The notes below the pieces were generated by a model. The model was given only the letters and a program-made list of their open reading frames with translations, made no database searches and was not told the DNA's origin. From assembly GCA_039028635.1 (NCBI GenBank), contig JBCCHV010000065.1, positions 1 through 37,722 of the forward strand: a DNA stretch of 37,722 nucleotides, given 5' to 3'. A program made the position numbers and the translations under genes. Shown in pieces: positions 2,584-28,286 of the stretch (its first letter is position 1; the number at the start of each line of letters is the position of its first letter). The stretch comes from Acidobacteriota bacterium. GTDB taxonomy: Bacteria > Acidobacteriota > Thermoanaerobaculia > Multivoradales > JBCCEF01.

Positions 2584-2870
2584 TGGGACCACTACTGATC
2601 AGTATCTATGTCTTCGTGCTGGCCATCTTCGTCGGCTTCGAGATCATCACCAAGGTCCCGCCGACACTCCACACGCCGCTCATGTCGGGCGCCAACGCCA
2701 TTTCCGGAATCACCATCGTCGGCGCCTTCTACGCCGCCCAGAGCGGCCATGTCGCGATCAGTAGCGTGCTCGGCTGCGGCGCCATCGCCTTGGCCTCGGT
2801 GAACGTCGTCGGCGGCTTCATGGTCACCGATCGCATGCTCAAGATGTTCGGCCAGAAGAAGAAGCGATGA
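2583..2870 (+). CDS. pntAb: NAD(P) transhydrogenase, alpha subunit part 2 (PntAb)
   Basis: A 95-residue membrane subunit with three predicted hydrophobic helices and the conserved segment KVPPTLHTPLMSGANAISG. It supplies part of the proton channel (domain II) and ends in a basic KMFGQKKKR tail. The ATG overlaps the stop of PntAa, and its own stop overlaps the PntB start by 4 bases (ATGA). A start further upstream in the same frame would lie within pntAa, where the translation is low-complexity and Arg-rich, so 2583 is chosen. Confidence 0.95.
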   Translation: MGPLLISIYVFVLAIFVGFEIITKVPPTLHTPLMSGANAISGITIVGAFYAAQSGHVAISSVLGCGAIALASVNVVGGFMVTDRMLKMFGQKKKR

Positions 2871-4309: not shown

Positions 4310-4364
4310 GCCGGTCGAGGACCACGACCCAGAACCGGCGGAGACCCGTCAAGGAGGCGACAGG

Positions 4365-6116: not shown

Positions 6117-6280
6117 AGCCTCCTCAGAGGCCGTCGAGCCGCGCTCGTGAGCGGCCCGTCCTCCTCCGGACAAAAATTCTCGGCTCATGACCGAAGCCAC
6201 GGTGCGATGTCGCTGTGACGGGTTAGGTGTCTGTGCTCGGCCCCCGCCGACCGCCTGGCAATCGAATTCTTGGAGGTCTC

Positions 6281-9200: not shown

Positions 9201-12200
9201 CCCTCGGCAGCCTCGCCGCCAGCGCCGACACCAGCGTGTCGCTGGTCGCCGGGGTCGCCAGCAACGGTGCCGGCCAGAGCCTCGACAATCTCGCCTTCGT
9301 CACCTCGGCGACGGAGGAGCCCAACGAGGCCAGCCTGCCGGCCGGTGAGCTGCGCGGCGCCGCCGCCGTCACCGGCACGACGGTGACCGCCGCGACGGAC
9401 CTCGCCCTGACCAAGGCAGACTCGGCCGATCCGGCGATCGCCGGCCAGAACCTGACCTACACCCTGACGGTGACCAACAATGGCCCGTCCGACTCGAGCG
9501 GCGCCACCATCTCCGATCCGCTGCCGGCGGGCACGACCTTCGTGTCGTCGCCGGACGGCTGCGGCGAAGCCGGCGGCACCGTCACCTGTCCCGTCGGCGC
9601 CCTCGCCAGCGGCGCTTCGACCAGTGTCGCCTTCACCGTCACCATCGGCGCCAGCGTCACCGGCAGCCTGAGCAACACCGCCACCGTAACCGCCAACGAA
9701 AGCGATCCAACGAGCGGCAACGACAGCGCCACCGAGGCCACCGCGGTCACGGCCAGCGCCGACCTCGCCTTGAGCAAGGACGACGATCTCGGCACCGCCG
9801 TCGCCGGCGGCGAGATCGGCTATCTGTTGGCGGTGACCAACAACGGTCCCTCGGACGCCACCGGTGTCGTGGTGGGCGATCCCTTGCCAGCAGGTACCAG
9901 CTTCGCCTCGTCGACGGACGGCTGCACCGAGGCCGGCGGCATCGTTTCCTGTCCCGTCGGTGCCCTCGCCGCCGGCGCAAGCCGGACCGTCACTTTCCGA
10001 GTCGCTGTCGATCCGGGCATCGAATCGTCGATCACCAACCAAGCAGTGGTCAGCGGAAACGAAAACGACCCCGTCTCTAGCAATGACGAAAGTAGCGTCA
10101 TCACCCCGGTCGAGCAGCGGGCAGACCTGCGCCTCGACAAGGCGAGCTCCGTCGACCCGGTGGTTGCCGGCCAAGAGCTCACCTACACCCTGACCGTCAC
10201 CAACGATGGCCCCTCGACCTCCGACGGCGCCACTGTCAGTGATCCGTTGCCCGCCGGCACCTCCTTCGTTTCGTCGCCGGACGGCTGCGGCGATGCCGCT
10301 GGCACCGTCACCTGCGCCATCGGGTCGCTGGCACCAGGTGCCTCCCAAAGCGTCCCCTTCACGGTTCAGGTAGAGGCCTCCACCGTCGGCCCGCTGATCA
10401 ACCGGGCGACCGTGACCGGTGTCGAAACCGATCCCGACAACAGCAACGACACGGCGGAGATCACCACCACCGTGTCGCGCCAGGCGGATCTCGAGATCAC
10501 CCAGGTCGACAACCCCGATCCGGTGACGGCCGGCAACCCCTTGAGCTATACCCTGACGGTCGCCAACGTCGGCCCGTCCGATGACCTCGAAACGGTGACC
10601 GTCGGCGACACGCTGCCCGCCGGGACCACCTTCCAGAGCGCCAGCGGCACCGGCTGGAGCTGCGGCCAGGCGGCCGGCGTCGTCACCTGCAGCCGCGCCG
10701 GCCTGGCGGTCGGCAACGCGCCGCCGATCACGGTCGCCGTGACGGTCGACCCGGACACCACCGGGAGCCTCACCAACACCGTCTCGGTGACCTCGTCGAC
10801 GACCGATCCGGACCCCGGAGCGGACGACACCAACGTCGTCGAGTCCACCACCGTCGCCACCGAAGCCGATCTCTCGCTGAGCAAGAGCGACTCCGTCGAT
10901 CCGGTGCCCGGCAACACCTTCTCCTACACCCTGGAGGTGACCAACGCCGGCCCGTCGGAGGCCCGCAACGTGATCGCCACGGACACCCTGCCGACCGGCC
11001 TGGTGTTCGACTCGTCGGCCACCTGCACGGAGGCCGCCGGCGTCGTCACCTGCGACTTCGGCACCATCGCCGCCGGCGCCACCGAGGCCCTCGAGTTCGT
11101 GGTCACCTTGAGCTCGCCGCCGGATTCGACGGTGCTCAACACCGCCTCCGTGACCAGTGACGACCCGGACCCGAACAGCGCCGACAACAGCGATCAGGAG
11201 GAGACCAGTCTCGACCTCGAGGCGCCGACGGTCAGCGTCCTGAGCTCCGTCGGTGACACCGGCGACGGCAGCCTCGACGAGTGCGAGACGGCCACCGTCG
11301 CCATCGACCGGCTGCGTATCACCTTCAGCGAGGCGATGGCGGACCCGACCGGCGACAGTGACCCGCAGGACGTCACCAACCCGGACAACTACCGGCTCCT
11401 CGCCGCCGGCGCGGATCGCAGCTTCGACACCGTCGCCTGTGGCCCGGCAACCGGCGACGACCTCTGGCTGTCACCCGTGTCGGTGAGTTACGACGACAAC
11501 ACCCTCACCGCCGAGGTCTCCTATGGCACGGCGCTGGGTGACGATCTCTACCGCCTGCTGGCGTGCAGCACGCTGACCGATCCCGCCGGCAACGCCCTCG
11601 ACGGCGATGCCGACGGCAACGGCGGTGACGACTTCGCGCGCGGCTTCCGGATCGATACCGGCAACCGCTTCGCCAACGGTCACTTCGACTGCGATCTCGC
11701 CGGTTGGACCCTGACCAGCACCAATCCGGCGGAGATCGCCTGGAGCGCCGACGACTTCGAGGGCTCGGACCAATCGGGCTCGGCGGCGATCAGCAATCTC
11801 ACCGCCAGCAGCGAGTTCCAGATCGGCCAGTGTGTCGAGCTGGCGGCCGCCGGTGCGGTCCACCAGCTGCGGGCTCGCCTACGCCTGGCGGTCGCTCCGA
11901 CGACCGTCCTCGGGGTGGCACGAGGCTGCGCCTTCTTCGAAGGCAACGGCTGTAGCGGGACGCTGCTCGATTCGAGCGTCGCCGCGGCCATCGCCGAGGA
12001 CTCCGCCGGCAACTGGCTGGAGGTGTCGTCCGAAGTGACGCCACCGACGGCGGCCCGCTCGGCCCAGTGCACGGTGCTGCTGAGCACACCGGCCGGGGAC
12101 GCCTTCGACGCCAACCTCGACTTCCTGTCCCTGCGAGTGGATTCGACGGTGATCTTCGCCGACGGCTTCGAATCCGGGGACACCTCGCGCTGGTCGGCGA

Positions 12201-12220
12201 CCGTCGGAGGTGCTCCGTGA
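6281..12220 (+). CDS. Giant secreted CARDB/DUF11/CHRD repeat protein
   Basis: A 1979-residue exported protein. The ATG at 6281 is preceded by GGAGG at 7 nt and begins a signal peptide ending PVSAQ; an in-frame upstream ATG at 6227 lacks such a site. Five CARDB-like modules of about 148 residues (6395-8631) alternate in two types. Six DUF11 modules follow, each opening like ADLALTKADSADPAIAG. The first DUF11 is interrupted by a CHRD-like domain (about 8825-9180; LDGSQTTPM, AGEIAG). Next come a SbsA-type Ig domain (FSEAMADPTGD) at about 11230-11660, a jelly-roll-like C-terminal domain, and the ending FADGFESGDTSRWS. Likely an extracellular adhesin or matrix protein. No enzymatic motif seen. Confidence 0.88.
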   Translation: MSLRTVLRLAAEPRLPALSVLCLVCLALTITAAPVSAQPDLIATKTNDTSSVGVVGTPFTWTIKVDNIGSSDYFIAGSFDLLRDELPNTNITYGSPNITAQSGVTGTIVCRLSNFRLSCDGFTNVTIAAGGSFTVAVTATPSAAGTFDNPRSGQICRADPGNEDSESNESNNDCSDSVVVGTGVTGPDLTVVKNNDVGDATELANGAWDWSLQVANGGDADATFSNGQVILRDDLPASGLTYGTPSLPGQTGISGSGSIACAIATNTLTCSANGGNVTLAAPNGAFTVTVPTTPTATGSYANPRAAGTCAADPDGLISEGDESNNACSNTVVVAGSPDLTAVKTNDVADNAVISTPFNWSITVTNGGSADYFGPSSFSLLRDELPSTNVSYGTPTISAQSGITGSFSPSITSNSGLFRLNVEANSNVTIAPGGSFTVTFAATPTAAGVLDNPRSGQLCRADPGNEDAELDESNNDCSNSVTVGTGITGPDLTVVKNNDVGDATELADGAWNWSLLVANGGDSDATFSSGQVILRDDLPASDLSYGTPTLSGQTGLSGSGTVACAIATNTLTCSASGGDVTLSSSAGGFTVNIATTPSATGTFDNPRAAGSCAVDPAGVVTEGDESNNTCSDSVVVAGSPDLVASKSNDTAGIGTVGVAFDWSITVTNNGSADYFIASSFDLLRDELPDSDITYGSPSVSGQSGVTGTFGCQIQSFRLSCEANTNVTIAPGGGFTVTFAATPTAEGVFANPRSGELCRADPGNEDAELDESNNDCSDTVTLTALAELELTKSDSPDPVIAGNDLSFSLTARNAGPSTADSVVLYDLLPAGIAFDGPASDSRCTQPAGLVGLTASLDGSQTTPMSGSAATGLASLVLDTTSNELRFALAASGISGTLTGASLRLADGTLVQSLYGGAPPTFDDSSPITGRIQLTQAQADALQVANSYRLRIDTSANPAGEIAGTPAVASAMPVVCALGSLAASADTSVSLVAGVASNGAGQSLDNLAFVTSATEEPNEASLPAGELRGAAAVTGTTVTAATDLALTKADSADPAIAGQNLTYTLTVTNNGPSDSSGATISDPLPAGTTFVSSPDGCGEAGGTVTCPVGALASGASTSVAFTVTIGASVTGSLSNTATVTANESDPTSGNDSATEATAVTASADLALSKDDDLGTAVAGGEIGYLLAVTNNGPSDATGVVVGDPLPAGTSFASSTDGCTEAGGIVSCPVGALAAGASRTVTFRVAVDPGIESSITNQAVVSGNENDPVSSNDESSVITPVEQRADLRLDKASSVDPVVAGQELTYTLTVTNDGPSTSDGATVSDPLPAGTSFVSSPDGCGDAAGTVTCAIGSLAPGASQSVPFTVQVEASTVGPLINRATVTGVETDPDNSNDTAEITTTVSRQADLEITQVDNPDPVTAGNPLSYTLTVANVGPSDDLETVTVGDTLPAGTTFQSASGTGWSCGQAAGVVTCSRAGLAVGNAPPITVAVTVDPDTTGSLTNTVSVTSSTTDPDPGADDTNVVESTTVATEADLSLSKSDSVDPVPGNTFSYTLEVTNAGPSEARNVIATDTLPTGLVFDSSATCTEAAGVVTCDFGTIAAGATEALEFVVTLSSPPDSTVLNTASVTSDDPDPNSADNSDQEETSLDLEAPTVSVLSSVGDTGDGSLDECETATVAIDRLRITFSEAMADPTGDSDPQDVTNPDNYRLLAAGADRSFDTVACGPATGDDLWLSPVSVSYDDNTLTAEVSYGTALGDDLYRLLACSTLTDPAGNALDGDADGNGGDDFARGFRIDTGNRFANGHFDCDLAGWTLTSTNPAEIAWSADDFEGSDQSGSAAISNLTASSEFQIGQCVELAAAGAVHQLRARLRLAVAPTTVLGVARGCAFFEGNGCSGTLLDSSVAAAIAEDSAGNWLEVSSEVTPPTAARSAQCTVLLSTPAGDAFDANLDFLSLRVDSTVIFADGFESGDTSRWSATVGGAP
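6395..8631 (+). repeat. In-gene tandem modules A-B-A-B-A
   Basis: Module starts are 6395 (A1), 6839 (B1), 7289 (A2), 7745 (B2) and 8195 (A3), each 437-456 bp long. A modules carry DYF...LLRDELP and DNPRSGQLCRADPGNED. B modules carry VVKNNDVGDATELA and QVILRDDLPAS. B1 and B2 are nearly the same at nucleotide level over their first 150 bp, and all A modules share long identical stretches. This indicates duplication of an A-B pair rather than of single modules. Such repeats can misassemble or recombine. Confidence 0.9.
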
Positions 12221-15314: not shown

Positions 15315-15377
15315 GGCAGGCTTCCTCCGCCCTCTCTGGTGTGGTTGTCGAAAATGACTGTCGCTACCACCACTCTA

Positions 15378-15389
15378 CGACAGCTGTCG
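15378..15389. promoter_or_regulatory. Perfect 12-bp palindrome in divergent spacer
   Basis: cgacagctgtcg is a perfect palindrome between the NTF2-like gene and the propeller gene; a tgtcgaa word also occurs at about 15349 and 15385. The spacer further holds the repeated word ggcccgccg near 15440-15468. It could be an operator for either gene, with no family assignment. Confidence 0.25.
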
Positions 15390-15471
15390 AAGGACGTTCG
15401 AGATTTTCCGCCGCCGGCGGGCCGTCGCGGGCCAAAACGGGCCCGCCGAAAACTTCATCGGCCCGCCGGCG

Positions 15472-15477
15472 TAGACT
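15472..15477 (+). promoter_or_regulatory. Candidate -10 box of a leaderless promoter
   Basis: TAGACT lies 5 nt before the ATG at 15483, and no Shine-Dalgarno sequence precedes that ATG. This layout fits leaderless initiation, where transcription starts at or next to the A of the ATG. A -35 box is not clear. Confidence 0.35.
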
Positions 15478-15482
15478 GCGCC

Positions 15483-16658
15483 ATGGCTTCTGCAAGCAAT
15501 CCCCGGCGATTCACCCGGTCGCCCTCTTCGATGGGACTCCTCCTCGGTCTCACCGTATGCCTCACGGGCTCCCCGGTGGTAGCCGACGATTCCGCCCCAG
15601 AGCGCCGGTTCGTTTCGCGCGCCAATCTGGTCCTCGGTCTCGACAGCGATCTCAGTGCCGGCGTCTCTCTCGGCGACGTCGATGGCGATGGCGACCTCGA
15701 CGCCCTGGTCGCCAACGGCCGGCACTGGGCCCAGGCCAACCTGCTGTTCTTCAACAACGGCCGCGGGCTGTTCACCTCGGCACGCCAGGTCGGAGTGGAT
15801 CGCGCCACCAGCTACGCGGCACCGCTGGTCGACCTGGATGGCGACGGCGACCTCGACGTGGCGGTCGCCAACGACCGCGCGCCCAAACCGCTGCTGCTCA
15901 ACGACGGCAGCGGGCGATTCCTCGAGGCCGGCACTTTTGGCCGGCCCGACGCCAATACCCGCGGCGTGACCGTGGCCGACCTCGACGGCGACGGCGATCC
16001 GGACCTCCTGGTCACCAACCGTCGTGAGGCGAACGCCGTTTTCCTCAACGATGGCACCGGCCAGTTCGAGGCGGGACCGTCCTTCGGGGACCTGCAGAGC
16101 GCCACCATTGCCGTGGCCACCGGGGACTTCGATGAGGACGGGCGCCTCGACCTCGCCCTCGCCAACCGCGATGGCCAGGCCAATGCGGTGCTGCTGCAGG
16201 GCGAAGGCGGAGCCTTTGGCGACCGCAGGCCCTACGGCGAGGGCGATGACGAGACCCGCGGAGTGGCGGTGGGCGACCTCGATGGCGATGGCCATCTCGA
16301 CCTGGTGACCGCCAACATCGGCCAGCCGAACGGCGTCTACTTCGGCAACGGGCGAGGCGCCTTCGATCGCCGGGTGAGCTACGGCCGCCAGGACGGCGCA
16401 AGCTACTGCGTGCGGCTGGCGGACTTCGATCGCGATGGCGATCTCGACATCGCTGTCGGCAACAGCGGACAGGTCAACACCGTCTACCTCAACCAAGGCG
16501 GCGCGCGGCGCTTCACCTCCCAATCGCTCGGCACCGAAGAGCTCGACACCTACGGCCTCGCCATCGGCGACCTCGACGGCGACGGCTTCCCGGACATCGT
16601 GGAAGCCAACTCCGGAGCTCCCAACCGTGTCTACCTCAACCGCCCCGCACCGCCGTGA
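15483..16658 (+). CDS. Secreted seven-repeat FG-GAP/VCBS beta-propeller
   Basis: 391 residues from 15483; a start at 15531 (MGLLLGLTV) is possible but would leave a very short n-region. The signal peptide ends near SPVVADD. The mature protein contains seven repeats of about 50 residues, each with a calcium-loop motif such as DVDGDGDLD, DLDGDGDLD, DLDGDGDPD, DFDEDGRLD, DLDGDGHLD, DFDRDGDLD or DLDGDGFPD, followed by FLNDGTGQF-like strands. Seven such repeats suggest a closed seven-bladed, calcium-binding, integrin-alpha-like propeller. Probably a surface or matrix protein; partner unknown. Confidence 0.9.
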   Translation: MASASNPRRFTRSPSSMGLLLGLTVCLTGSPVVADDSAPERRFVSRANLVLGLDSDLSAGVSLGDVDGDGDLDALVANGRHWAQANLLFFNNGRGLFTSARQVGVDRATSYAAPLVDLDGDGDLDVAVANDRAPKPLLLNDGSGRFLEAGTFGRPDANTRGVTVADLDGDGDPDLLVTNRREANAVFLNDGTGQFEAGPSFGDLQSATIAVATGDFDEDGRLDLALANRDGQANAVLLQGEGGAFGDRRPYGEGDDETRGVAVGDLDGDGHLDLVTANIGQPNGVYFGNGRGAFDRRVSYGRQDGASYCVRLADFDRDGDLDIAVGNSGQVNTVYLNQGGARRFTSQSLGTEELDTYGLAIGDLDGDGFPDIVEANSGAPNRVYLNRPAPP

Positions 16659-16971
16659 CCCGGGCAGCAGTCTCTCGCTTCAGGATCGTGGCTCGGCCGT
16701 TGGCCAGCCCTGCGAACACCACGGCCCGCGACCCAGCAAGGCCGCTCGGCAAGCGCCGAGCGAAGACCCTTCGGACCGTCCGCCTCCGACCCGGCACGCT
16801 GCTTGCTGAAGACTCTCTCGCCACGGCTCCCCCGGGAGCGAGAGAAGTCCGAAGTTGCTGGCCTTCTCGGCATATCAACCGCCGGGCCGCGAGTCCCGGA
16901 ACGACGCCAAGGCGGATGCCAGGGCGTCAATCTGGCGCGAAGTGGCGTTGGCGGTCGAAGAGAAGAAGACG
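16659..16971. other. Intergenic spacer with strong hairpins
   Basis: No supported gene over 313 bp. Two clear hairpins: cgctcggc (16743-16750) with gccgagcg (16755-16762) around aagc, and tctctcgc (16814-16821) with gcgagaga (16838-16845) enclosing a smaller one. They separate the propeller gene from the Bat operon and may form its leader. The reading frames here are Arg-rich and not convincing. Confidence 0.5.
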
Positions 16972-18417
16972 ATGTCCAGGAATCAACCCAACGACGTCCT
17001 TTCCCGGCGCGCCCGCCTTTTGGCCGTCGGTGTCTTGCTGGGCGCGGGATGTTTGGCCACGACGGTGTCCGGAGACACGCTACCGGCGCTGTTTCAGCAG
17101 CACGGTATCCGGCCCGTCGAACCCGCGTCTCCAGCGGCAGATTTCGAGCTCCCGGACTTGTCCGGGAGCCGCCGCGCTCTCTCCGATGCCCGCGGCACCT
17201 GGGTTGTCCTGACCTTCTTCGCCACCTGGTGCGGCCCCTGCCGCCACGAGATGCCGACCCTCGAGCGCCTGCATCAGGCCAAGGCCGCCGAGGGAATCAC
17301 CGTTCTGGGCGTCTCGATCGACGATTCCAAGGCCCCGCTGCCACACTTTCTCAACCAGATGGGAGTGACCTTCCCGGTGCTCTGGGACGAGAACGGTCAA
17401 GCCGGCAGCACCTACCGCGCCACCAGCATCCCGCTGACCTATCTAATCGATCCCGCCGGCCGCATCGTCGGCGTTTCGCGGGGCGCCCGTGACTGGGAGG
17501 CCCTCGGGCCGATGCTCTCCCAGGCGGCGACGATCATGCCCCCGGACGCCGCCACCGAGTCCGCCTGGCAGACCGCCTCGGGCCCCGTCGACTTGCCCTC
17601 CGAGGTGACGCCGCCGACCGCCGTCGTGCAGCTCTCGTCGGCCACTCCACGGCCCGGCAAGATCTTCGAGCTGACCATTGAGATCCGCTGGTCCGGGACC
17701 TTCGACGAGTACCTGCTCCATCCCCCCCGGGTCGCCCTGCCGGAAGGAGTGCGAGCCAGCGGCAACACCCGCGCCGAGACCACCAGCCGCGCCGGTCGCA
17801 ACGTCATCACCTACTCGATGCCGCTGGTGGCGGAAGCCACCGGCCGCTTCGCCCTCGATCCGGTCGAGCTGCTCTACACACCGCGCTTCGAATCGCAGCA
17901 GGTGTCGTCACGCCTCGCCGGTCCGGTGGTCGAGGTGGAGGACGCCACCTTCGCCGGCTTCAAGCCGCGCACCGTGATGGTGGCCGGCACCGGCGCCGCC
18001 GTCGCCGGCCTGCTCGCCGGCCTCGCCCTGGTCGGCCTCGGCCGCCGGCGCAAGAAGATCGCCCAGGTCGAAGCGCCGCCGCAGCTCGCCGGCTGGGAGG
18101 AGACCGTCGCCGAAGCCCGCCGCCATCGCCTCCAGGGAGAGCCGCGCAAGGCCTTCCTGGCGCTCGCCGAGCTGGCCCGCGAGCTCGACCCGCAAGACAC
18201 CACCGATCTCGTCGACACCCTCGACAAGGCGCGCTACGGTGGCTACCGACCGAGTCGCGAAGAGCTCGAGCGCCTCGAGCGGCGGGTCGAGCTGCTGCTG
18301 CGCGAGCACCGGCCCGATGAGCGCGCCGCCGAGCGACGGTCGATTCGGCTGCGCCCCGATTCGCGCCAATCCATGGAATCTCGCAACCCCATGACCCCGG
18401 AGAACGTCGGCTCCTAG
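16972..18417 (+). CDS. TlpA-like thioredoxin fused to BatD-like domain
   Basis: 481 residues. An N-terminal hydrophobic signal (LLAVGVLLGAGCLATT, perhaps a lipoprotein) leads to a TlpA/ResA-type thioredoxin domain, residues about 45-185. Its active site is WCGPC (Cys87, Cys90), and the cis-Pro loop is TSIPLTYLID. From about residue 205 there is a BatD-like beta-sandwich (VVQLSSATPRPGKIFELTIE), then a transmembrane helix near residue 345 followed by GRRRKK, and a charged cytosolic helical tail. The thioredoxin would face the periplasm. It heads the Bat operon, 64 bp before moxR. The ATG at 16972 follows a GAAGAGAAGAAG purine tract. Confidence 0.82.
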   Translation: MSRNQPNDVLSRRARLLAVGVLLGAGCLATTVSGDTLPALFQQHGIRPVEPASPAADFELPDLSGSRRALSDARGTWVVLTFFATWCGPCRHEMPTLERLHQAKAAEGITVLGVSIDDSKAPLPHFLNQMGVTFPVLWDENGQAGSTYRATSIPLTYLIDPAGRIVGVSRGARDWEALGPMLSQAATIMPPDAATESAWQTASGPVDLPSEVTPPTAVVQLSSATPRPGKIFELTIEIRWSGTFDEYLLHPPRVALPEGVRASGNTRAETTSRAGRNVITYSMPLVAEATGRFALDPVELLYTPRFESQQVSSRLAGPVVEVEDATFAGFKPRTVMVAGTGAAVAGLLAGLALVGLGRRRKKIAQVEAPPQLAGWEETVAEARRHRLQGEPRKAFLALAELARELDPQDTTDLVDTLDKARYGGYRPSREELERLERRVELLLREHRPDERAAERRSIRLRPDSRQSMESRNPMTPENVGS

Positions 18418-18481
18418 CCCGACCGGCTCAGGAACCGTACGTGTCCGGCTGCGTTTCTTGCTTTTGAAGGAGAGAGGGAAG

Positions 18482-19470
<989 letters not shown>

Positions 19471-19471
<1 letters not shown>

Positions 19472-20364
19472 TGAGCGCGACGCAGGAAACCCTCGACCCG
19501 GAGCTCTTCCAGAAAATCAAAGGCATCCAGATCCGCACCCAGCGCCTGGTGACGGAAGCGATGGCCGGCGAGTACGAGAGCGCCTTCAAGGGCCGCGGCA
19601 TGGAGTTCGAGGAGGTGCGCGAGTACCAGCCCGGCGACGACATCCGGCACATCGACTGGAACGTCACCGCCCGCACCGGCACGCCCTTCGTCAAAGAACA
19701 CCGCGAGGAGCGCGAGCTCACCGTCATGCTGATCGTCGACGTCAGCTCGTCGGGGGCCTTCGGCAGCGGCGACAAGCTCAAGAACGAGGTCGCCGCCGAG
19801 GTCGCGGCGATGCTCGCCTACACCGCCATCCAGAGCAACGACCGCGTCGGCCTGATCATCTTCTCGGACCGCATCGAGCGCTACATCCCGCCCAAGAAGG
19901 GGCGCGCCCACGTCTGGCGGGTGATCCGCGAGATCCTCACCTTCCGCCCCAGCCGACGCTCGACGGACCTCGACGGCGCCCTCGAGTTCCTCAGCAAGGT
20001 GACGCCACGGCGGGTGGTCGGCTTCGTCATCTCGGACTTCCTCGACGACGGTTTCGAGGACCGCCTGCGGATCGCGGCGCAGCGCCACGACCTCACCGCC
20101 GTGACGGTGGCCGATCGCCGCGAGGCGGAGCTGCCGTCGGTCGGTCTGATCGAGCTCGAGGACGCCGAAACCGGTGAGACCCTGCTGATCGACACCTACG
20201 ACCGCAACATCACCCGCGGCTTCGTCGTCCTCGGCGACGACGACCGCTCCCAGCGCTCGGATCTGTTTCGCTCCGCCGGCGTCGGCGAGCTGCCGCTGTG
20301 GACCGACGAGCCGGCCGCCGATGCCCTGATCCGCTACTTCCGGGCCCGCGAGCGGAGGCGCTGA
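19471..20364 (+). CDS. DUF58 domain protein
   Basis: 297 residues, cytosolic, without a transmembrane segment. The DUF58 signature EVREYQPGDDIRHIDW is followed by NVTARTGTPFVKEHREERE. The C-terminal part contains a VWA-like core beginning MLIVDVSSSGAFGSG. DUF58 proteins are standard partners of MoxR ATPases in Bat operons. The ATG overlaps the moxR stop, and the next gene starts 4 bp after its own stop. Confidence 0.95.
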
Positions 20365-20368
20365 GACG

Positions 20369-21370
20369 ATGGAGCTACGCCAGCCTCCCACCACCGCCCG
20401 GCGCCCGACGGCCGACCCCATGGCCCGCCACCTGCTGTGGCTGCAGACCGCCCTGCTGGTGCTGCTGATCGCCCTCTTCGGCTGGCACCTGGCAAGCGAC
20501 CAAGGCAACCGCCAGGATGACCGGCGCGACCGCGAGGTGGCCGCCAAGCTCAAGGCCGCCGGCGTCGTCGACGAAGCGGCGCGCCTCTACGAGAGTTATC
20601 TGACGGACGCCTCGGCCCCCGCCGCCGGCCGCGCCGAAATCGCCTACAGCCTGGGCACCACGTACCTCGAGCACGGGCGCTACGAGTCGGCCCTGCGCTG
20701 GTTCTACGAGGCCGAGGCGCTGGGCAGCGGCGAGCTCGGAGATCAAGTCGCCGAGAAGATCGTCCACGCCCTCGAGCGTCTGGGCCGGGTCCACGCCGCC
20801 CACAGCGCCCTCGCCGCCAGGACTCGCCTGGACGGCGACGACACCGTCCGCGCGGAGGACGATCCGGTGCTCGCCGAGCTCGGCGAGCGCACCCTGCGGC
20901 GCTCCGACCTCGATGCCACCCTCGCCACCCTGCCACCGCAGGCGGCGGCCCAGCTCGCCGCCCCGGAGCAGCGCGCCGAGCTGCTGCGCAAGCTGGTTTC
21001 CGACGAGCTCATCCTCGCCAAGGCCCGCAAGCTCGAGATCGACGACGATCCGCAGGTGCGCCGCCAGATCGAGGAGATCTCGAAGCAGGCCGTGATCGCG
21101 CGCTTCCTCGAGCTCGAGGTGATGGCCAAGATCACCGTCGACGACGCCGACCTGGAGAACTTCTACCGCGCCAACGTCGAGCGCTACCGGCCGCCGGCGA
21201 AGGACGGCGAGGAAGCGCCTGCGGCACTCCCCCTCGACCAGATCCGATCGCGGGTCGAGCAGGAGTATCGCCTGCAGAAGGCCCAGAGCACCTACGCCGA
21301 AATGGTCGAGGAGCAGCTTTCGGCGGCGGACGTCAAGCTCTACCCGGAAAGGCTGGACAACGGTGGGTAA
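20369..21370 (+). CDS. TPR plus SurA-like chaperone-domain membrane protein
   Basis: 333 residues: a short cytosolic lead, one transmembrane helix (WLQTALLVLLIALFGWHLA, about residues 25-43), a periplasmic TPR region (IAYSLGTTYLEHGRYESALR), then a SurA/PpiC-type N-domain (LLRKLVSDELILAKARKLEI, ITVDDADLENFYRANVERYR). Where PpiC proteins carry a parvulin isomerase domain of about 90 residues there is only a short linker, after which the usual final helix appears (RSRVEQEYRLQKAQSTYAEM). It therefore looks like a chaperone scaffold without isomerase activity. It sits between DUF58 and a BatD-like gene and ends inside the next start. An alternative start is at 20420. Confidence 0.75.
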   Translation: MELRQPPTTARRPTADPMARHLLWLQTALLVLLIALFGWHLASDQGNRQDDRRDREVAAKLKAAGVVDEAARLYESYLTDASAPAAGRAEIAYSLGTTYLEHGRYESALRWFYEAEALGSGELGDQVAEKIVHALERLGRVHAAHSALAARTRLDGDDTVRAEDDPVLAELGERTLRRSDLDATLATLPPQAAAQLAAPEQRAELLRKLVSDELILAKARKLEIDDDPQVRRQIEEISKQAVIARFLELEVMAKITVDDADLENFYRANVERYRPPAKDGEEAPAALPLDQIRSRVEQEYRLQKAQSTYAEMVEEQLSAADVKLYPERLDNGG

Positions 21371-22538
21371 GAGGGTCGCCGGCCGGCGATTGCTGCCCCT
21401 GCTGCTGGTGCTCACGGCGGCCTGTGCCGGTGCACCGCCGGAACCCGCCGCGGACGACGAGGACCGGCCGCCGGTCGAGGCCCGAGCCACCGTCGACCGG
21501 GCCGTCGCCACCACCGGCGACATCCTCACTTACACCATCCTGGTCGAGCACGAGCCCGACCTGCTGGTCGAGATTCCCGAGGCCGGCAGCGAGATCGCCG
21601 GCTTCCGCATCGTCGAGATCGGTCGCGAGGTGCCGCGGACGGCGAGCGACGGCCAACGCCAGGTCGTCGAGCTCTGGTATCAGCTCAGGGCCGACCTGGT
21701 GGGCTCCTACGTGCTGCCATCGATCACCATCCCCTATCGACCGACGGAGAGCAACGAGGACGGGGCCAGCAGCCAATCCGCCCAGCGAGGCGAGGCCGGC
21801 TCGGTCAGCACCTCCGAGATCTTCGTCGAGGTCGAGTCGGTACTGCCGGCGGACGGCGAAGCCGACGACATTCGCGGCCTCAAGCCTTTGCGGCCCCAGC
21901 CGCGCCAGACACCTTGGGGTTGGATCACGGCGATCGCCGGCGGGGCCCTCGCCATCGCCCTGCTGGTGGGAATCTGGCTGTGGCGTCGCTACCAGCTGAC
22001 CCCGGAAGAACCAGCGGCACCGCCGCACGAGATCGCCTTTGCCGCCCTCGACGCATTGCGCGCCACCGACTTCGAGGACCCGGAAGCCGTTCGACGGTTC
22101 TACTTCGAGGTCTCCGAAGTCGTCCGGACCTATGTCGAAGGGCGCTTCGGCCTCAACGCCACCGATCTGACCACCGAGGAGATCCTGCCCCGCCTGGCCG
22201 ACGTGCGTGAGCTCACCGGCCAGCGCGGTGTCCGCCTGGCGGAGTTCCTGGAAACCACCGACCGGGTGAAGTTCGCGGCCCACGAGCCCCAGCAGGAGGA
22301 GATCCGCGAGGTCTACGAAAGCGCCCTCGGCTTCGTCGAGAGCACTGTGCCGGTGGAGCCGGAAGCCACCGCCGCCGGGCAGGCGACCGCAGCGCAGGCC
22401 CCCGATCCGCCCCCGAGTGATCCGCCGCCGAGCGAGCCGCCGCCGGAGGATCCGGCGCCTCCCGGCTCGGAGCCTCCCAAACCTGAGCCGCCCAACCCCG
22501 AGCCACCCACGAAACCTTCCGAGGAGGCCGCGGCATGA
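21363..22538 (+). CDS. BatD-like lipoprotein with Pro-rich tail
   Basis: 391 residues, GTG start overlapping the previous gene by 8 bp. The signal LLPLLLVLTAACAG contains a lipobox. A periplasmic beta-sandwich similar in layout to BatD proteins follows (ARATVDRAVATTGDILTYTI, GSYVLPSITIPYRP). Next are a transmembrane helix (WITAIAGGALAIALLVGIWL, about residue 185), a cytosolic helical domain (RRFYFEVSEVVRTYVEGRFG), and a Pro/Glu-rich C-terminus of about 45 residues. The cytosolic part matches the helical domain found after the membrane segment in BatD/DUF4381-type proteins. It lies directly before the two VWA genes, whose products it probably contacts. Confidence 0.78.
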   Translation: MGKRVAGRRLLPLLLVLTAACAGAPPEPAADDEDRPPVEARATVDRAVATTGDILTYTILVEHEPDLLVEIPEAGSEIAGFRIVEIGREVPRTASDGQRQVVELWYQLRADLVGSYVLPSITIPYRPTESNEDGASSQSAQRGEAGSVSTSEIFVEVESVLPADGEADDIRGLKPLRPQPRQTPWGWITAIAGGALAIALLVGIWLWRRYQLTPEEPAAPPHEIAFAALDALRATDFEDPEAVRRFYFEVSEVVRTYVEGRFGLNATDLTTEEILPRLADVRELTGQRGVRLAEFLETTDRVKFAAHEPQQEEIREVYESALGFVESTVPVEPEATAAGQATAAQAPDPPPSDPPPSEPPPEDPAPPGSEPPKPEPPNPEPPTKPSEEAAA

Positions 22539-23569
22539 TCCGCGACCTGGTCTTCTCGGACCTCCATCTCGGCTGGGTCCTGGCGCCGCTGTTCGTCCTC
22601 TGGGTGCTCGCCTGGCAGCTCTGGCCGCACTGGCGGCGGCGCTCCGCGGCCGCGGCGGTACGCTTCTCGAGCCTCAAGCACCTGGTGCCGCTACGGCCGT
22701 CCCGCAGCCTGCGGCTGCGTCAGCTCATTCAGGGCCTGCGCCTGGTCACCGTCGCCCTGCTCCTGCTCGCCGCCCTCCGCCCCCAGACCGGCCGCACCCT
22801 CACCCAGGTGTCGACGGAAGGGGTCGACATCATGCTGGCCCTCGACACCTCCGGCAGCATGCAGGCCCTCGACCTCGATGCCGACCGCCAAGTCTCCAAG
22901 CGACGCAACCGTCTCGAGGTCGCCAAGGAGGTGGTCGAAGACTTCGTCGAGAAGCGGGTCAACGACCAGGTCGGCCTGGTGGTGTTCGGCGCCGAAGCCT
23001 TCACCCAGTGCCCGCTGACCCTCGACCACGGCATCCTGGCGACCTTTCTCGAGCGCGTCGACATCGGCATCGCCGGCGAAGCCACCGCCATCGGCTCGGC
23101 CCTCGGCACGGCGGTCAAGCGTCTCGAGGACTCGCAGGCGAAGTCGAAGGTCGTCATCCTGCTCACCGACGGCCGCAGCAATGCCGGCGCCATCTCGCCG
23201 CGGCAGGCGGCGGACATCGCCGCCACCTTCGACATCCGGGTCTACACCATCGGCGCCGGCACCCGCGGCAAGGCGCCTTTCCTGGTCGACACGGTGTTCG
23301 GCAAGCAGGTGGCCTATGAGGACGTCGAGATCGACGAGGAGACCTTGAAGGCGATCGCCGAGCGCACCGGCGGCGAGTACTTCCGCGCCGAGGACCTGTC
23401 CTCCCTGACCCAGGTCTACGACCGCATCGACGAGCTCGAGAAGACCGAGATCACCATGGAGTCCTACATGGAGTACAACGAGCAGTTCCGCTGGTTCGTG
23501 TTGCCGGCGGTCGCCCTTCTGCTGCTCGAAGTGCTGCTCCTCGGGACCCGTTTCCGGAAGCTGCCGTGA
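22535..23569 (+). CDS. batA: BatA-like von Willebrand A membrane protein
   Basis: 344 residues. Two N-terminal transmembrane helices (LAPLFVLWVLAWQLWPHW and LVTVALLLLAALRPQTG) precede a periplasmic VWA domain. Its metal-ion (MIDAS) motif is DTSGS (Asp104, Ser106, Ser108), with conserved downstream Thr and Asp residues (GEATAIGSAL, ILLTDGRSNAG). A final helix (FVLPAVALLLLEVLLLG) anchors the C-terminus. This layout is that of BatA/BatB of aerotolerance operons. The ATG overlaps the preceding stop by 4 bp. Confidence 0.93.
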   Translation: MIRDLVFSDLHLGWVLAPLFVLWVLAWQLWPHWRRRSAAAAVRFSSLKHLVPLRPSRSLRLRQLIQGLRLVTVALLLLAALRPQTGRTLTQVSTEGVDIMLALDTSGSMQALDLDADRQVSKRRNRLEVAKEVVEDFVEKRVNDQVGLVVFGAEAFTQCPLTLDHGILATFLERVDIGIAGEATAIGSALGTAVKRLEDSQAKSKVVILLTDGRSNAGAISPRQAADIAATFDIRVYTIGAGTRGKAPFLVDTVFGKQVAYEDVEIDEETLKAIAERTGGEYFRAEDLSSLTQVYDRIDELEKTEITMESYMEYNEQFRWFVLPAVALLLLEVLLLGTRFRKLP

Positions 23570-24651
23570 AGCGCTTGCTGCTGCCCTCGGTCGTGATCGG
23601 CGCCGCCCTCGCCGGCGGCTGCAGCGAGGTGCGCGTCGGCAGCCCCGACTCCCTCTGGCTGCTCTGGCTGGTGCCGCTCCTACTGGCTTTCTTCGTCTAC
23701 TCCTTCCGCACCCGGGCGCGGCTGCTGCGGCGCTTCGCCTCGGCCACCATGCTGGAACGCCTGACCGCCGGCATCAGCCGGCCGCGGCAGCTCCTTAAGG
23801 CCGCCCTGCTGCTCGCCGGCCTGGCCGCCGCCGTGCTCGCCCTGGCGGAGCTCAAGTGGGGCTTCACCTGGGAGGAGGTGCAGCGACGCGGCGTCGACAT
23901 CGTGGTCGCCCTCGACGTCTCCGACAGCATGCTGGTCGAAGACGCCGAAGCCAGCGGCTCGCTGAGCCGCCTGGAGCGCGCCAAGCGCGAGATCGTCGAC
24001 CTGCTGAAGATTCTCGAAGGCGACCGTATCGGCCTGGTGGCCTTCGCCGGCACCGCCTTCCTGGAGTGCCCCCTGACCCTCGACTACAGCGCCGCCGAGG
24101 TCTTTCTGGGCTCCATCGACACCGATCTCATTCCGGTCAAAGGCACCGCCCTGGGAGACGCCCTGCGCACCTCCCTCGAAGCCTTCGAAGGCTCCGCTCA
24201 GCCCTCGCGGGCGATCATCCTGATCACCGACGGTGAGGACCACGGCGGCGCCGCCCTCGAAGCCGCCGAGGAGGCGAAGACCGCCGGCGTGCGCATCTTC
24301 ACCATCGGCATCGGGCGCGACGAAGGCTCTCCAATTCCCGACGCCCGCGGCGGTTTCCGGCGCGATCGCCGCGGCGAGATCATCCTCAGTCGCCTCGACG
24401 AGCCGACCCTGCAGAAGATCGCTCTCGCCACCGGCGGCCGCTACGTGCGCTCGGTCACCGGCGATGTCGACCTCGAGCAGATCTACTCCCAGGGCATCAA
24501 GGCGACCCTCGAAGACCAGGAGCTCGGCTCGCGCCGTCGCCAGCGCTGGGAGGAGCGTTTCCAGTGGGCGGTCGGCCTCGCCGCTCTGCTTCTCATGCTC
24601 GAAGTGCTGATCTCCGAGCGCACCCGGCGGAGGGCCCGTAGCCATGGTTGA
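23566..24651 (+). CDS. batB: BatB-like von Willebrand A membrane protein
   Basis: 361 residues, GTG start overlapping the batA stop by 4 bp. Two helices (WLLWLVPLLLAFFVYSF and LLKAALLLAGLAAAVLALAE) precede a VWA domain with MIDAS DVSDS (Asp117, Ser119, Ser121), VKGTALGDAL and ILITDGEDHGG. A last helix and an Arg-rich end follow. The N-terminus AALAGGCSEVRVGSP resembles a lipobox but may instead be a short pre-helix. A paralogue of the upstream gene; in Bacteroides BatA and BatB form membrane complexes. Confidence 0.93.
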   Translation: MKRLLLPSVVIGAALAGGCSEVRVGSPDSLWLLWLVPLLLAFFVYSFRTRARLLRRFASATMLERLTAGISRPRQLLKAALLLAGLAAAVLALAELKWGFTWEEVQRRGVDIVVALDVSDSMLVEDAEASGSLSRLERAKREIVDLLKILEGDRIGLVAFAGTAFLECPLTLDYSAAEVFLGSIDTDLIPVKGTALGDALRTSLEAFEGSAQPSRAIILITDGEDHGGAALEAAEEAKTAGVRIFTIGIGRDEGSPIPDARGGFRRDRRGEIILSRLDEPTLQKIALATGGRYVRSVTGDVDLEQIYSQGIKATLEDQELGSRRRQRWEERFQWAVGLAALLLMLEVLISERTRRRARSHG

Positions 24652-25759
24652 TTCCAAGATCCGCTTCCTGCTGGTGGCGCCCCTCGCCGCCGCCCTGGTC
24701 GGCGCCGCACCGGCGACGCCGCCGCCGGACGCCGCCGCGGAGGCGACCGCGCCACCGGCCGCTCCGACCAAGATCGACGGTCCTCACCAGGCCTACGCCG
24801 CCGGCCTCTACGACCAGGCCCTGCAGGGCTTCATCGACCAGCAGGTCGAACGGCCCGAGGACCCCGAACTGCTGCTCAACCTGGGCAGCTCCTACTTCCA
24901 GATGGGTGACTTCGAAAAGGCCCGCGACGCCTTCGCCGGCGCCGTCTTCGCCGGCGATCCGGAAGTCCGCTTCCAGGGCCTCTACAGCCTCGGCAATACC
25001 GCCTTTCGACAGGGCCGCCTCGAAGACGCCGTCGAGCTCTACAAGCAAGCCCTCGAGATCAACCCGGACGACGAAGACGCCAAGTTCAACCTCGAGTACA
25101 CCCGCGACGAGATCCGCCGGCGCCACGAGGAAGCCCAGAAGCGCCAGCAGGAACAGCAACAGCAGGGTGATCAAGGCCAGCAAGGGGACCAGCAGCAGCA
25201 AGGAGACCAGGGCCAGGAGGGGGAGCAAGAGCAGTCCGGCGACCAGCAGCAGGAAGGCGGAGAGCAAGAGGCCGGCGACCAGGGCGAAGACTCATCGCAA
25301 GGCGAGGAGCAGCCGCCGGCGGACGAACCCCAGGAGGCCGGCGGCGACGACAACTCCCAGTCACCGGGAGCCCAGGGCCCCGACCAGGACGGCGATGGAC
25401 TGCCCGACGAGACCGAGCGCAGCGGCGCCAACCCCACCGATCCGGAGAATCCCGACACCGACGGCGACGGTCTGCCCGATGGCGCCGAAGACCTCGACCG
25501 CGACGGCGAGCGCGACGAGGGCGAGACCGACCCCAATCAGCGCGACACGGACGGCGACGGAATTCCCGACGGCGAGGATCCGGACGCCACCCAGCCGGAA
25601 GGCTCCACCAGCGCCAGTGGTGGCAACCCCCAAGGCGGCGAAGAGCGGCCGATGACGCCGGAAGAGGCCGCCCGCTTCCTCGAAGCCCTCGAAGAGGGCC
25701 GCCCGCAGCAACAGCGCCCCGGGCCGCGTCGCCCGGCCCGTCCGGAGAAGGACTGGTGA
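24644..25759 (+). CDS. BatC-like TPR protein with thrombospondin type-3 repeats
   Basis: 371 residues, ATG overlapping batB by 8 bp. A signal peptide is followed by two to three TPR motifs (ELLLNLGSSYFQMGDFEKAR, RFQGLYSLGNTAFRQGRLED). Then comes a strongly Gln/Gly/Glu-rich linker (residues about 165-245) and three calcium-binding TSP3 motifs at about 247-317 (DQDGDGLPDETE, DTDGDGLPDGAEDLDRDGE, DTDGDGIPDGEDPD). The C-terminus (MTPEEAARFLEALEEGRPQQ) resembles the end of BatC-type TPR proteins. The TSP3 block is not part of the BatC proteins I know. Periplasmic by inference. Confidence 0.85.
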   Translation: MVDSKIRFLLVAPLAAALVGAAPATPPPDAAAEATAPPAAPTKIDGPHQAYAAGLYDQALQGFIDQQVERPEDPELLLNLGSSYFQMGDFEKARDAFAGAVFAGDPEVRFQGLYSLGNTAFRQGRLEDAVELYKQALEINPDDEDAKFNLEYTRDEIRRRHEEAQKRQQEQQQQGDQGQQGDQQQQGDQGQEGEQEQSGDQQQEGGEQEAGDQGEDSSQGEEQPPADEPQEAGGDDNSQSPGAQGPDQDGDGLPDETERSGANPTDPENPDTDGDGLPDGAEDLDRDGERDEGETDPNQRDTDGDGIPDGEDPDATQPEGSTSASGGNPQGGEERPMTPEEAARFLEALEEGRPQQQRPGPRRPARPEKDW

Positions 25760-27477
25760 GACGCTTTCTATCGGCCCTCGCCCTGGCGCTACTGGGGGCG
25801 GCTCCGGCCGCGGCGCAGTCGATCACCGCCGAGATCGATCGCGTCGAAACCACGCCCCGTGAACCGCTACGACTGTTGGTGACCGTCAAAGGCTCCCAGA
25901 CTGCGCTGCCGGTGCTTCCGGAGCTGCCCGACTTCCAGGTCCGTGCCGGCGGCAAGAGCACCCAGGTCGACATCGTCAACGGCCGCGCCAGCAGCGGCGC
26001 GGCCTACAACTACTTCTTGATCCCGCAGCGCACCGGAACCTTCACCATCGGTCCGGTGATGGTCGAGATCGACGGCAAGGCCTATCGCTCCCGGCCCTTC
26101 CAGGTGCGCGTCCTGAAGGCCGATCGTGACCGCCCGGGCAACGATCGCGATCTCTTCATCCAGGTGGCGGTGTCCGATCGCCAGCCCTTCGTCGGCGAGC
26201 AGGTGATCTACACCTGGAAGTTCCTCTACCGGGTACAGATCGGTGAGCCACGGCTCGATCCCCAGGACTTCGACGGCTTCCTCTCCGAACCTCTCGGCGA
26301 GACCCGCCAGTACGAAACCGTCGTCGGCGGTCGGCGCTACGGCGTCATCGAGCGCCGCGTGGCGCTCTTCCCACAGCGGGCCGGCACGCTGACGGTACCG
26401 GGCTCGAAGCTCACCTGCCAGGTGGCGGTGCGCGATCAGCGGCGCCGCCGGCGCAGCCTGATGGACGACTTCTTCGGCCGCGTGCGGGCCGAGCAACGGG
26501 TGGTGCCCGGACCGCCGGTGGCGCTCGAGGTCCGCCCCCTGCCGTCACCACCGGCGGACTTCAGCGGCCTGGTGGGCAAGTTCCAGATCCAGGCCGAGGC
26601 CTCGAAGCGCCAGCTCCAGGTGGGCGAGTCGACCACCGTCCAGATCACCGTCAGCGGCCAGGGCAATGTGCAGAGCATCGCCGAGCCACCGCTGCCGGAT
26701 CTCTCCGCCTTCAAGATCTACGACGACAAGACCAGCAGCCGCATCGACCGCGATGGCCTCGAGCTCAAAGGGTCGAAGGTCTTCCCCAAGGCGCTGGTGC
26801 CGCTTTCCCCGGGCGAAACCATGATCCCGGCGATCCCCCTGGTCTACTTCGATCCGGCGGCGGGCAGCTATCGCACCACCCGCACGACCCCCATTGTCCT
26901 GGCCGTCGACCCTGCCGAAGGGCAGGAAGATCTGCGCCTCACGGAGTCGCTGGCGCCGACCACCGGCAAGGTGGCGGTGCGCATCCTGGCAGACGACATC
27001 CTGCCCCTCTACCGCGGTCTCGATGGCGCCACCGAGAGTCCCCCGGGGCCGCCCCTCCAGGCCGCCCTCACCGGCGCCCTGGCGGCGCCACCGCTGCTCT
27101 TCGTCGGCCTGTGGTGGCGCCGGCGACGGCAGCTCCGCTACCAAGAGGACGGCGCCCTGCGCCGCCGCCAGGAAGCCCTGCGGCGAGCGCGCAAGAGCCT
27201 CGCCAACGACGACCCCTCGGAGGTCGTGCGCACCTACATCGGCGACAAGCTCGGTCGCGAAGGCGGTGCCCTGACCGCCGCCGAGGCCGCCGCCGGGCTG
27301 CGCCAGGCGGGCCTTGGCGGTGACCTCGTGGACGAGGTCCGGAGCTTCCTCGAAGGCCTCGAAGCGAGTCGCTACGGCGCCGCCGGCGGCGCTGCCGGAG
27401 GAGAGCTCCGAGACCCCGCCAAGGCTCTCATCGAGCGCCTCGAAGGGGCGCTGCGAAAGACCCGGAGCAAGCCGTGA
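25756..27477 (+). CDS. batD: BatD aerotolerance protein
   Basis: 573 residues, GTG start overlapping the upstream stop by 4 bp. A signal peptide ends near AAPAAAQ. The BatD fold follows: ITAEIDRVETTPREPLRLLV, YNYFLIPQRTGTFTIGPVMV, PFVGEQVIYTWKFLYRVQIG and a conserved KFQIQAEASKRQLQVGEST repeat of the beta-sandwich. A transmembrane helix near residue 440 (ALAAPPLLFVGLWW) ends in an Arg cluster, and a cytosolic helical domain closes the protein. Full length and unmistakable. It is the third BatD-type product in this operon. Confidence 0.92.
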   Translation: MRRFLSALALALLGAAPAAAQSITAEIDRVETTPREPLRLLVTVKGSQTALPVLPELPDFQVRAGGKSTQVDIVNGRASSGAAYNYFLIPQRTGTFTIGPVMVEIDGKAYRSRPFQVRVLKADRDRPGNDRDLFIQVAVSDRQPFVGEQVIYTWKFLYRVQIGEPRLDPQDFDGFLSEPLGETRQYETVVGGRRYGVIERRVALFPQRAGTLTVPGSKLTCQVAVRDQRRRRRSLMDDFFGRVRAEQRVVPGPPVALEVRPLPSPPADFSGLVGKFQIQAEASKRQLQVGESTTVQITVSGQGNVQSIAEPPLPDLSAFKIYDDKTSSRIDRDGLELKGSKVFPKALVPLSPGETMIPAIPLVYFDPAAGSYRTTRTTPIVLAVDPAEGQEDLRLTESLAPTTGKVAVRILADDILPLYRGLDGATESPPGPPLQAALTGALAAPPLLFVGLWWRRRRQLRYQEDGALRRRQEALRRARKSLANDDPSEVVRTYIGDKLGREGGALTAAEAAAGLRQAGLGGDLVDEVRSFLEGLEASRYGAAGGAAGGELRDPAKALIERLEGALRKTRSKP

Positions 27478-28286
27478 TCGTCGCCTTGCTGTTCCTCGCC
27501 CTGGTGACTCCAGCAGCGCCAGCGGCCGTCGCGACAACACCGGATCCGGGCCTCGACGCAGCCCTGGCGCCGGCCACTGGACTCACCGAGAGCGGCGAGC
27601 CCGGCGAGCTCTTCGTGCGCGCCAACACCGCCTACGAGGACGGCGACTACGGCCGCGCAGTGCGCCTCTACGAGGGGCTCATCGAGCGCGGCGTCGACAA
27701 CGGACGCCTGCACTACAACCTCGGCAACGCCTACCTTCGCGCTGGCGAGCTCGGCCGCGCCATTGCCTCCTATCGGCGAGCCCAGAGCGCCCTGCCGCGC
27801 GATCAGGACACCGCCGCCAACCTCGCCTTCGCCCGCCGCAGCGCTCGCGATGCGCTGTCACCGCCAGGCCCCTCGGCAGTGCAGAGGACCCTGTTTTTCT
27901 GGCATTACCGGCTGTCTCGCCAAGAGCTCTTCGCCGCCACCCTCGGCCTCAACCTGTTGTTCTGGGGACTCCTCGGCTGGCGCCTCTACCGTCCCAACTC
28001 CGAGATTCTGCGCTGGCTCACCGGCCTGGTGCTGATTCCACTGCTGGCGGTGGCCGCCTCCTGGGCCACTCGCACCATCAGCCCGCAACGGGTGGCGGTG
28101 ATCGTGCCCCAGGAGATCAACGTCCAGTCCGGCACCTCACGCGACTCGGTGGTGCTCTTCAAACTCCACGCCGGTGCCGAGCTCGCGGTCCTCGACGAGC
28201 GCCCGGACTGGCTCCGCATCGCCCTGCCGGATGGTGAGCAGGGCTGGCTCGAGAGCCAGCACACCGAGCTCCTGATAGACCGCTAG
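27474..28286 (+). CDS. batE: BatE-like TPR and SH3 domain protein
   Basis: 270 residues, GTG start overlapping the batD stop by 4 bp. A signal sequence is followed by TPR motifs (FVRANTAYEDGDYGRAVRLY, LHYNLGNAYLRAGELGRAIA), two transmembrane helices (LFAATLGLNLLFWGLLGW and LTGLVLIPLLAVAASWA) and a C-terminal bacterial SH3 domain (VQSGTSRDSVVLFKLHAGAE, DWLRIALPDGEQGWL). This is the last gene of the operon. The convergent Cys-rich gene begins 22 bp beyond its stop, with no terminator hairpin recognised. Confidence 0.9.
   Translation: MIVALLFLALVTPAAPAAVATTPDPGLDAALAPATGLTESGEPGELFVRANTAYEDGDYGRAVRLYEGLIERGVDNGRLHYNLGNAYLRAGELGRAIASYRRAQSALPRDQDTAANLAFARRSARDALSPPGPSAVQRTLFFWHYRLSRQELFAATLGLNLLFWGLLGWRLYRPNSEILRWLTGLVLIPLLAVAASWATRTISPQRVAVIVPQEINVQSGTSRDSVVLFKLHAGAELAVLDERPDWLRIALPDGEQGWLESQHTELLIDR

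Follow-up and report, generated by a model that had tools for sequence, protein, structure and literature searches.

A TlpA/ResA-type thioredoxin fused to a BatD-like subunit ahead of moxR in a Bat operon of Acidobacteriota

The window (the whole stretch of 37,722 nt that was analysed) contains a Bat/MoxR operon, in which moxR, a DUF58 gene, genes for two VWA proteins with a MIDAS, a TPR protein gene and batD lie in one direction. Ahead of moxR is a gene whose product joins a thioredoxin to a BatD-like half. Bat operons are widespread, and the classical Bat subunits are not known to hold a redox site. The features of the fusion gene and of the operon are as follows.

16972-18417, + strand: thioredoxin-BatD-like fusion gene, ORF of 481 aa
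16972-17079, + strand: signal sequence region, residues 1-36 (hydropathy; low model confidence)
17128-17511, + strand: TlpA/ResA-type thioredoxin domain, residues about 53-180 (Pfam, structure matches)
17227-17241, + strand: WCGPC active site, Trp86-Cys90 (sequence, alignment)
17608-17940, + strand: BatD-like Ig-type beta sandwich, residues about 213-323 (profiles, model)
17971-18045, + strand: membrane helix, residues about 334-358, then GRRRKK (hydropathy, model)
18079-18348, + strand: helical tail domain, weakly DUF4129-like, with a conserved RYGG/RFGG motif (AlphaFold model)
18482-19471, + strand: MoxR AAA+ ATPase (ATG start; TTG at 18458 also possible)
19471-20364, + strand: DUF58/VWA protein (family match)
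20369-21370, + strand: TPR and SurA/PrsA-type chaperone-lobe protein, with an N-terminal hydrophobic segment (family and profile matches)
21363-22538, + strand: short BatD/DUF4381-like subunit (family match, hhalign)
22535-23569, + strand: BatA, VWA with MIDAS (family matches, structure alignment)
23009-23011, + strand: codon of BatA Cys159, in CPLT beside the MIDAS Thr (alignment)
23566-24651, + strand: BatB, VWA with MIDAS (family matches)
24067-24069, + strand: codon of BatB Cys168, in CPLT (alignment)
24644-25759, + strand: BatC, TPR (family matches)
25756-27477, + strand: BatD proper (PF13584 at 2.2e-35, in three stretches)
27474-28286, + strand: TPR-SH3 protein (family matches)

By the listed starts, neighbouring genes of the operon overlap or lie no more than 40 bp apart, and past moxR they overlap or are separated by at most 4 bp. 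The ATG of moxR is 64 bp downstream of the fusion gene and has GGAGAG ahead of it. No sigma-70-type promoter was recognised in a scan of positions 16500-18600. The fusion protein is an extra subunit of the Bat operon, because a separate gene for BatD proper lies in the operon at 25756-27477. The first-pass annotation had described it as a thioredoxin joined to a BatD-like subunit, heading a MoxR/VWA operon; the place and the likeness hold, but the subunit is additional to BatD and does not stand in for it.

An AlphaFold model of the fusion protein, built with a 13-row alignment (mean pLDDT 76.9, pTM 0.50), showed a thioredoxin fold followed by a beta sandwich at about residues 216-322, then a hydrophobic helix and lastly a helical tail; we infer that the tail domain is cytosolic. 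Mean pairwise identity was highest in the thioredoxin core (0.60), followed by the sandwich (0.54), the tail domain (0.43) and the membrane region (0.25). The protein contains three cysteines, at residues 27, 87 and 90. The first of these (17050-17052) falls inside the N-terminal hydrophobic stretch given by hydropathy (residues 14-35), in the lipobox-like context LLGAGC, and is absent from all other aligned members (12 rows with a letter there).

The thioredoxin half matched Pfam AhpC-TSA at residues 53-166 (2.6e-26), with related thioredoxin models matching too, and its nearest solved structures by sequence were the thioredoxin-family protein 3kcm and ResA. Comparison of this part of the model with TlpA (4txv) gave a Z of 20.0 and an rmsd of 1.8 over 152 aligned residues, and with ResA (2f9s) a Z of 19.8 and an rmsd of 1.8 over 138. 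Proteins of the TlpA/ResA type have a conserved Glu three residues after the second Cys of the active site and a conserved Pro opposite it. WCGPC, Glu93 and Pro154 were invariant in the 13-row alignment, and Glu93 is at the position of ResA Glu80; by its title, a structure of a ResA E80Q mutant was among the fold matches. The fusion protein thus shares with TlpA/ResA/CcmG-type reductases the fold, the CxxC, this Glu, the equivalent of Pro154 and a signal region. It differs from them in its CGPC site, in carrying a BatD-like sandwich, membrane helix and tail domain behind the thioredoxin, in its place in a Bat operon and in falling under the curated NCBIfam cut-offs. It is not filed as ResA itself, since the score with the NCBIfam ResA model NF002854 (100.5 bits) was below the cut-off of 170. 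The TlpA/ResA-type domain with an intact WCGPC (Cys87/Cys90), as first annotated, is therefore borne out by Pfam, fold matches and conservation.

The assignment of the C-terminal half is a matter of profiles. PF13584 (BatD) reached only E 0.25 in the fusion protein alone (12.4 bits against a gathering threshold of 24.1), but it matched at E<=1 (best 6e-7) in 12 of the 13 aligned fusion proteins, that of the window included. When a profile of the C-half was compared by hhalign, it matched the operon's BatD (E 3.2e-7, probability 93) and the short BatD/DUF4381-like subunit (E 4.8e-10, probability 97), two subunits that are themselves related (1.1e-12); plain hmmsearch of BatD-type profiles against the C-half gave weak matches. 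Foldseek and VIA returned generic Ig-like sandwiches (best Z 10.4, rmsd 2.6, 108 aligned), and a search by sequence for a BatD structure in the PDB copy used found none. As structure searches gave generic Ig-like sandwiches only, the BatD label rests on sequence profiles, and the C-half is best described as BatD-like rather than BatD. The earlier description of this half as a BatD-type sandwich agrees with the beta sandwich of the model and with the profile links. Like BatD and the short BatD-DUF4381 subunit, the fusion protein combines a DUF11/Ig-like sandwich, a membrane helix and a helical tail in the context of the operon; unlike them, it has a single sandwich behind a thioredoxin.

Searches of 72 genomes of the order with the C-half profile (E<=0.001) gave matches in 23, of which 16 were strong (E<=1.6e-57). 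The other seven, all from one genus, matched weakly (9e-7 to 2.4e-4) and over the membrane/tail region only. All 16 strong matches had a thioredoxin with WCGPC on the same ORF (in G050 the contig starts at the WCGPC), and in 15 of the 16 (the window, 12 others, G432 and G433) moxR followed the fusion gene, the contig ending there in the 16th (G435). An assembly error, a local fusion or chance is ruled out by this sharing of the fusion among all 16 genomes, and no split thioredoxin/BatD pair was found before moxR in relatives. The first-pass annotation had placed a single fused gene directly before moxR, and both the fusion and its place are upheld by the survey. In the phylum sample the C-half was found in 10 of 396 genomes, three of them strong and all 10 within the same order, with six candidates scored per genome and absences that are soft. 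A scan for related loci with the single fusion protein gave no match; in a scan with the alignment, which gave at least 80 loci, three of the 80 listed covered the fusion protein nearly in full and the others matched the thioredoxin part. Independent fusions in other phyla are possible.

Bat operons of the same order also occur in a form without the fusion. A tblastn search with the fusion protein (E<=1e-5) found no match in eight moxR loci (L147-L153 and L158, of which L148 ends after DUF58), and a search at 1e-4 found none in four more distant Bat loci (L167-L170, of which L167 contains only 0.8 kb before moxR). Seven of the former (L147, L149-L153 and L158) are moxR-to-BatD operons with neither the fusion nor a TPR/SurA gene, the contig of L147 ending within BatD, and the ORFs upstream of moxR in these seven appear by eye to be unrelated. 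Elsewhere in the phylum 17 of 19 loci hold moxR; in two (L219 and L220) a thioredoxin-profile match lies about 3.7-3.8 kb upstream of it, with other ORFs between. BatA was detected at E<=1e-60 in 60 of the 72 genomes of the order, compared with 16 of 72 for the fusion; most Bat carriers lack the fusion and Bat therefore does not need it. A tree of BatA and BatB grouped the fusion operons together apart from that of G435, which joined operons without the fusion. Gain, loss and transfer are indistinguishable because the inner supports of this tree are mixed. As the strong matches among the genomes searched come from one order of Acidobacteriota, the fusion says little directly on Bat operons in general.

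Two known architectures resemble the fusion protein in part. DsbD, like the fusion protein, brings together domains of the thioredoxin and Ig types at the inner membrane; the fusion protein differs from DsbD in having one membrane helix, a sandwich without cysteine and no DsbD_TM match. Cysteine was absent from the sandwich columns in 13 of 13 aligned members, which rules out an internal relay of the DsbD type; with no cysteine in the sandwich, the thioredoxin must act on other proteins. BB0170 of Borrelia is a BatD-TPR-SH3 fusion according to the available text of PMC5700661, and is likewise a fused BatD subunit within a Bat operon, although joined to TPR/SH3 parts and with no enzymatic domain named. 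Among titles and abstract openings of the open-licence PMC literature, searched for a thioredoxin tied to BatD, MoxR or Bat, no description of this fusion was found. The parts are known; the fusion of a thioredoxin to a BatD-like subunit appears to be new.

These findings are best accounted for if the fusion protein serves the Bat complex as its dedicated thiol reductase, tethered to the membrane on the periplasmic side and charged by DsbD, to which we give a probability of about 0.6. The TlpA/ResA-type domain would lie in the periplasm as part of an accessory subunit tethered to the inner membrane, where the BatD-like sandwich and membrane helix would anchor it to the Bat complex; the helical tail would be in the cytosol on the MoxR side. 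The RRRKK that follows the membrane helix favours a periplasmic thioredoxin by the positive-inside rule. Electrons would come from the host's DsbD; a separate DsbD_TM gene is present in the same genome, and DsbD_TM was found in 65 of 72 genomes of the order. The most likely substrates would be the cysteines of BatA and BatB beside the MIDAS, or else envelope clients, damaged or unfolded, that the co-occurring TPR/SurA-lobe protein would hold. The domain architecture, its conservation, the gene context and the DsbD_TM gene are observed; we infer the topology, the source of the electrons, the direction of the redox reaction, membership of the complex and the substrates. CGPC alone does not settle between a reductase and an oxidase or isomerase. 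The PF13584 score under the cut-off, with weak plain hmmsearch matches, weighs against a dedicated reductase of the Bat complex, and so does the majority of Bat carriers of the order in which the fusion is missing.

The idea of Bat redox chemistry is an old one. In Bacteroides fragilis, reducing agents brought a partial rescue of bat mutants (work of Tang et al., summarised in PMC3557215), and the same text reports a proposal that Bat reduces proteins of the periplasm or exports reducing power. A role of Bat in oxygen tolerance, on which the first-pass annotation drew, is contested, as Leptospira biflexa with all bat genes deleted had no oxidative phenotype (PMC3557215), a result that also counts against the reductase reading. 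A conserved lineage with a thioredoxin built into a Bat subunit would supply both a redox site and specific candidate partner cysteines, and would thereby give the old idea a concrete, testable part.

With regard to substrates, the thioredoxin and the TPR/SurA protein may act as a pair in envelope quality control. Their clients would be periplasmic proteins that are damaged or misfolded, and MoxR would give force or regulation from the cytosol. At E<=1e-20 the TPR/SurA protein was found in 14 of the 72 genomes of the order, and all 14 carried the fusion. Its profile matched PEB4 (positions 169-283, E 5.3e-9) and HP_0175 (positions 147-284, 1.8e-6). Pfam SurA_N_3 was detected in 10 of 11 members, the protein of the window falling below the cut-off, and Rotamase_2 (parvulin PPIase) matched three of 11 weakly (best 0.0039); no PPIase domain was found above a curated cut-off in the protein at 20369-21370; these SurA matches under the curated cut-off count against the pairing. 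So does the lack of a match at E<=1e-20 in two fusion genomes (G050 and G435), though in both the contigs are interrupted in this stretch of the operon. One genome in which no fusion was found (G038) has the tail of a TPR/SurA gene at the start of a contig, the upstream part being missing. The co-occurrence may also only mark one inherited operon type.

Across the phylum, 66 of 396 genomes matched the TPR/SurA protein at E<=1e-8, nearly all in the chaperone-lobe region only (five candidates were scored per genome and absences are soft), and the four near whole-profile matches were three fusion carriers and one distant member of the Acidobacteriota (G121). At locus L211 of the latter a BatD-family gene without a thioredoxin lies before moxR (10538-11467, - strand), together with a full-length TPR/SurA homologue. 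The combination lends support to a quality-control role and at the same time counts against it, in that a SurA-type protein is present without the thioredoxin fusion; an exclusive pairing of the TPR/SurA protein with the fusion is weakened. The BatD-family gene of L211 resembles an unfused ancestor in its position, but was rejected as a proven ortholog, as it matched the short BatD at 2.7e-18 and the fusion C-half at E 4.8, and is read from these scores as a positional parallel only. Taken with the evidence on both sides, action of the two proteins as a pair in quality control is a serious but tentative proposal, with the odds somewhat against it.

Alternatively, BatA Cys159 and BatB Cys168 may be endogenous substrates, with the thioredoxin keeping thiols at the side of the MIDAS reduced for metal loading or client binding. 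No cysteine is present in MoxR, the DUF58 protein, BatC, the TPR/SurA protein or the TPR-SH3 protein of the window; cysteines were found in BatA (Cys159), BatB (Cys19 and Cys168), the short BatD (Cys21) and BatD (Cys221). The last was rejected as a partner, being present in only three of 11 orthologues. The MIDAS has the form DxSxS-T-D in the available text of PMC13036017. Cys159 of BatA and Cys168 of BatB are each the first residue of a CPLT whose Thr, three residues further on, is that of the MIDAS and aligns with the PLT/PIT of solved Bat VWA domains (4rck, 4jdu and 3ibs); the thiols are putatively near the metal. TlpA is a periplasmic reductase of metal-site cysteines and keeps those of copper sites reduced, which offers a parallel; mixed-disulfide structures of TlpA with ScoI and with a cytochrome oxidase subunit were, by their titles, among the fold matches.

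Among closely related operons of the order, all 20 had the BatA cysteine and 15 had the BatB cysteine; the five without the latter have Leu there and all lack the fusion. Of the 16 fusion genomes, BatB was seen in 11, all of them with its cysteine, compared with two of seven closely related operons without the fusion; the BatB cysteine was also found in both operons where the contig ends before the fusion region (G038 and G434). Neither cysteine was present in four distant Bat operons of the order. Shared descent confounds this association within the order, as judged from the BatA and BatB tree. Elsewhere in the phylum, 24 loci outside the order (L181-L204) were compared, taken from the 30 best-scoring loci of a search that matched 73 of 149 genomes: the BatA cysteine was present in 22 of 24 and the BatB cysteine in 21 of the 23 with BatB. 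Among the 23 of these best loci with both genes, 21 had both cysteines, two had neither (L193 and L204) and none had only one. The BatA/BatB cysteine pair thus predates the fusion and has a broader distribution.

Operons without the fusion commonly carry both cysteines, and the solved Bat VWA domains carry Thr or Leu in their place; neither Bat nor the cysteines, therefore, need this thioredoxin. Nor is the pair the sole candidate, as BatB Cys19 (23620-23622; 21 of 21 rows that reach it) and Cys21 of the short BatD (21423-21425; nine of nine rows) are conserved too. Both lie in N-terminal hydrophobic, lipobox-like stretches and are read as putative signal-region cysteines. Exposure of the pair to the periplasm would follow from hydropathy reasoning and from the Borrelia homologue BB0173, whose VWA domain faces the periplasm according to the available text of PMC5700661. 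The BatA Cys159/BatB Cys168 pair is the best candidate partner, not proof of one, and its service as the endogenous substrate is rather doubtful. More doubtful still is the wider proposal that the Bat complexes of Acidobacteriota work as metal-site machines under thiol regulation, in which BatA and BatB each have a conserved MIDAS-side cysteine and this order has a built-in TlpA-type reductase that controls the pair. If it is true, the extra BatD-like subunit carries a dedicated reductase for the redox state of the BatA/BatB cysteines.

That the thioredoxin fold serves mainly as a binding or scaffold module with incidental redox activity, as might be argued from partner thiols that are candidates and from catalysis that is predicted, is very unlikely, since WCGPC is unchanged in 16 of 16 genomes and the core is the best-conserved region, which is unexpected if catalysis is dispensable.

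Several other genes were observed around the fusion. A second thioredoxin-like match, on the strand opposite to the fusion and about 2 kb upstream of it, was seen in three genomes of one genus, at these positions:

L144, 4660-5052, strand opposite to the fusion: second thioredoxin-like match
L145, 5987-6340, strand opposite to the fusion: second thioredoxin-like match
L156, 8241-8567, strand opposite to the fusion: second thioredoxin-like match

In the window itself, a gene for an FG-GAP repeat protein (15339-16658) lies on the same strand as the fusion gene and ends 313 bp before it. Further upstream are genes for NAD(P) transhydrogenase subunits and a gamma-glutamyltranspeptidase (1459-6116), which are related to redox and glutathione and whose presence there is probably a coincidence, and a gene for a protein of 1997 residues with DUF11, CARDB and CHRD domains (6227-12220).
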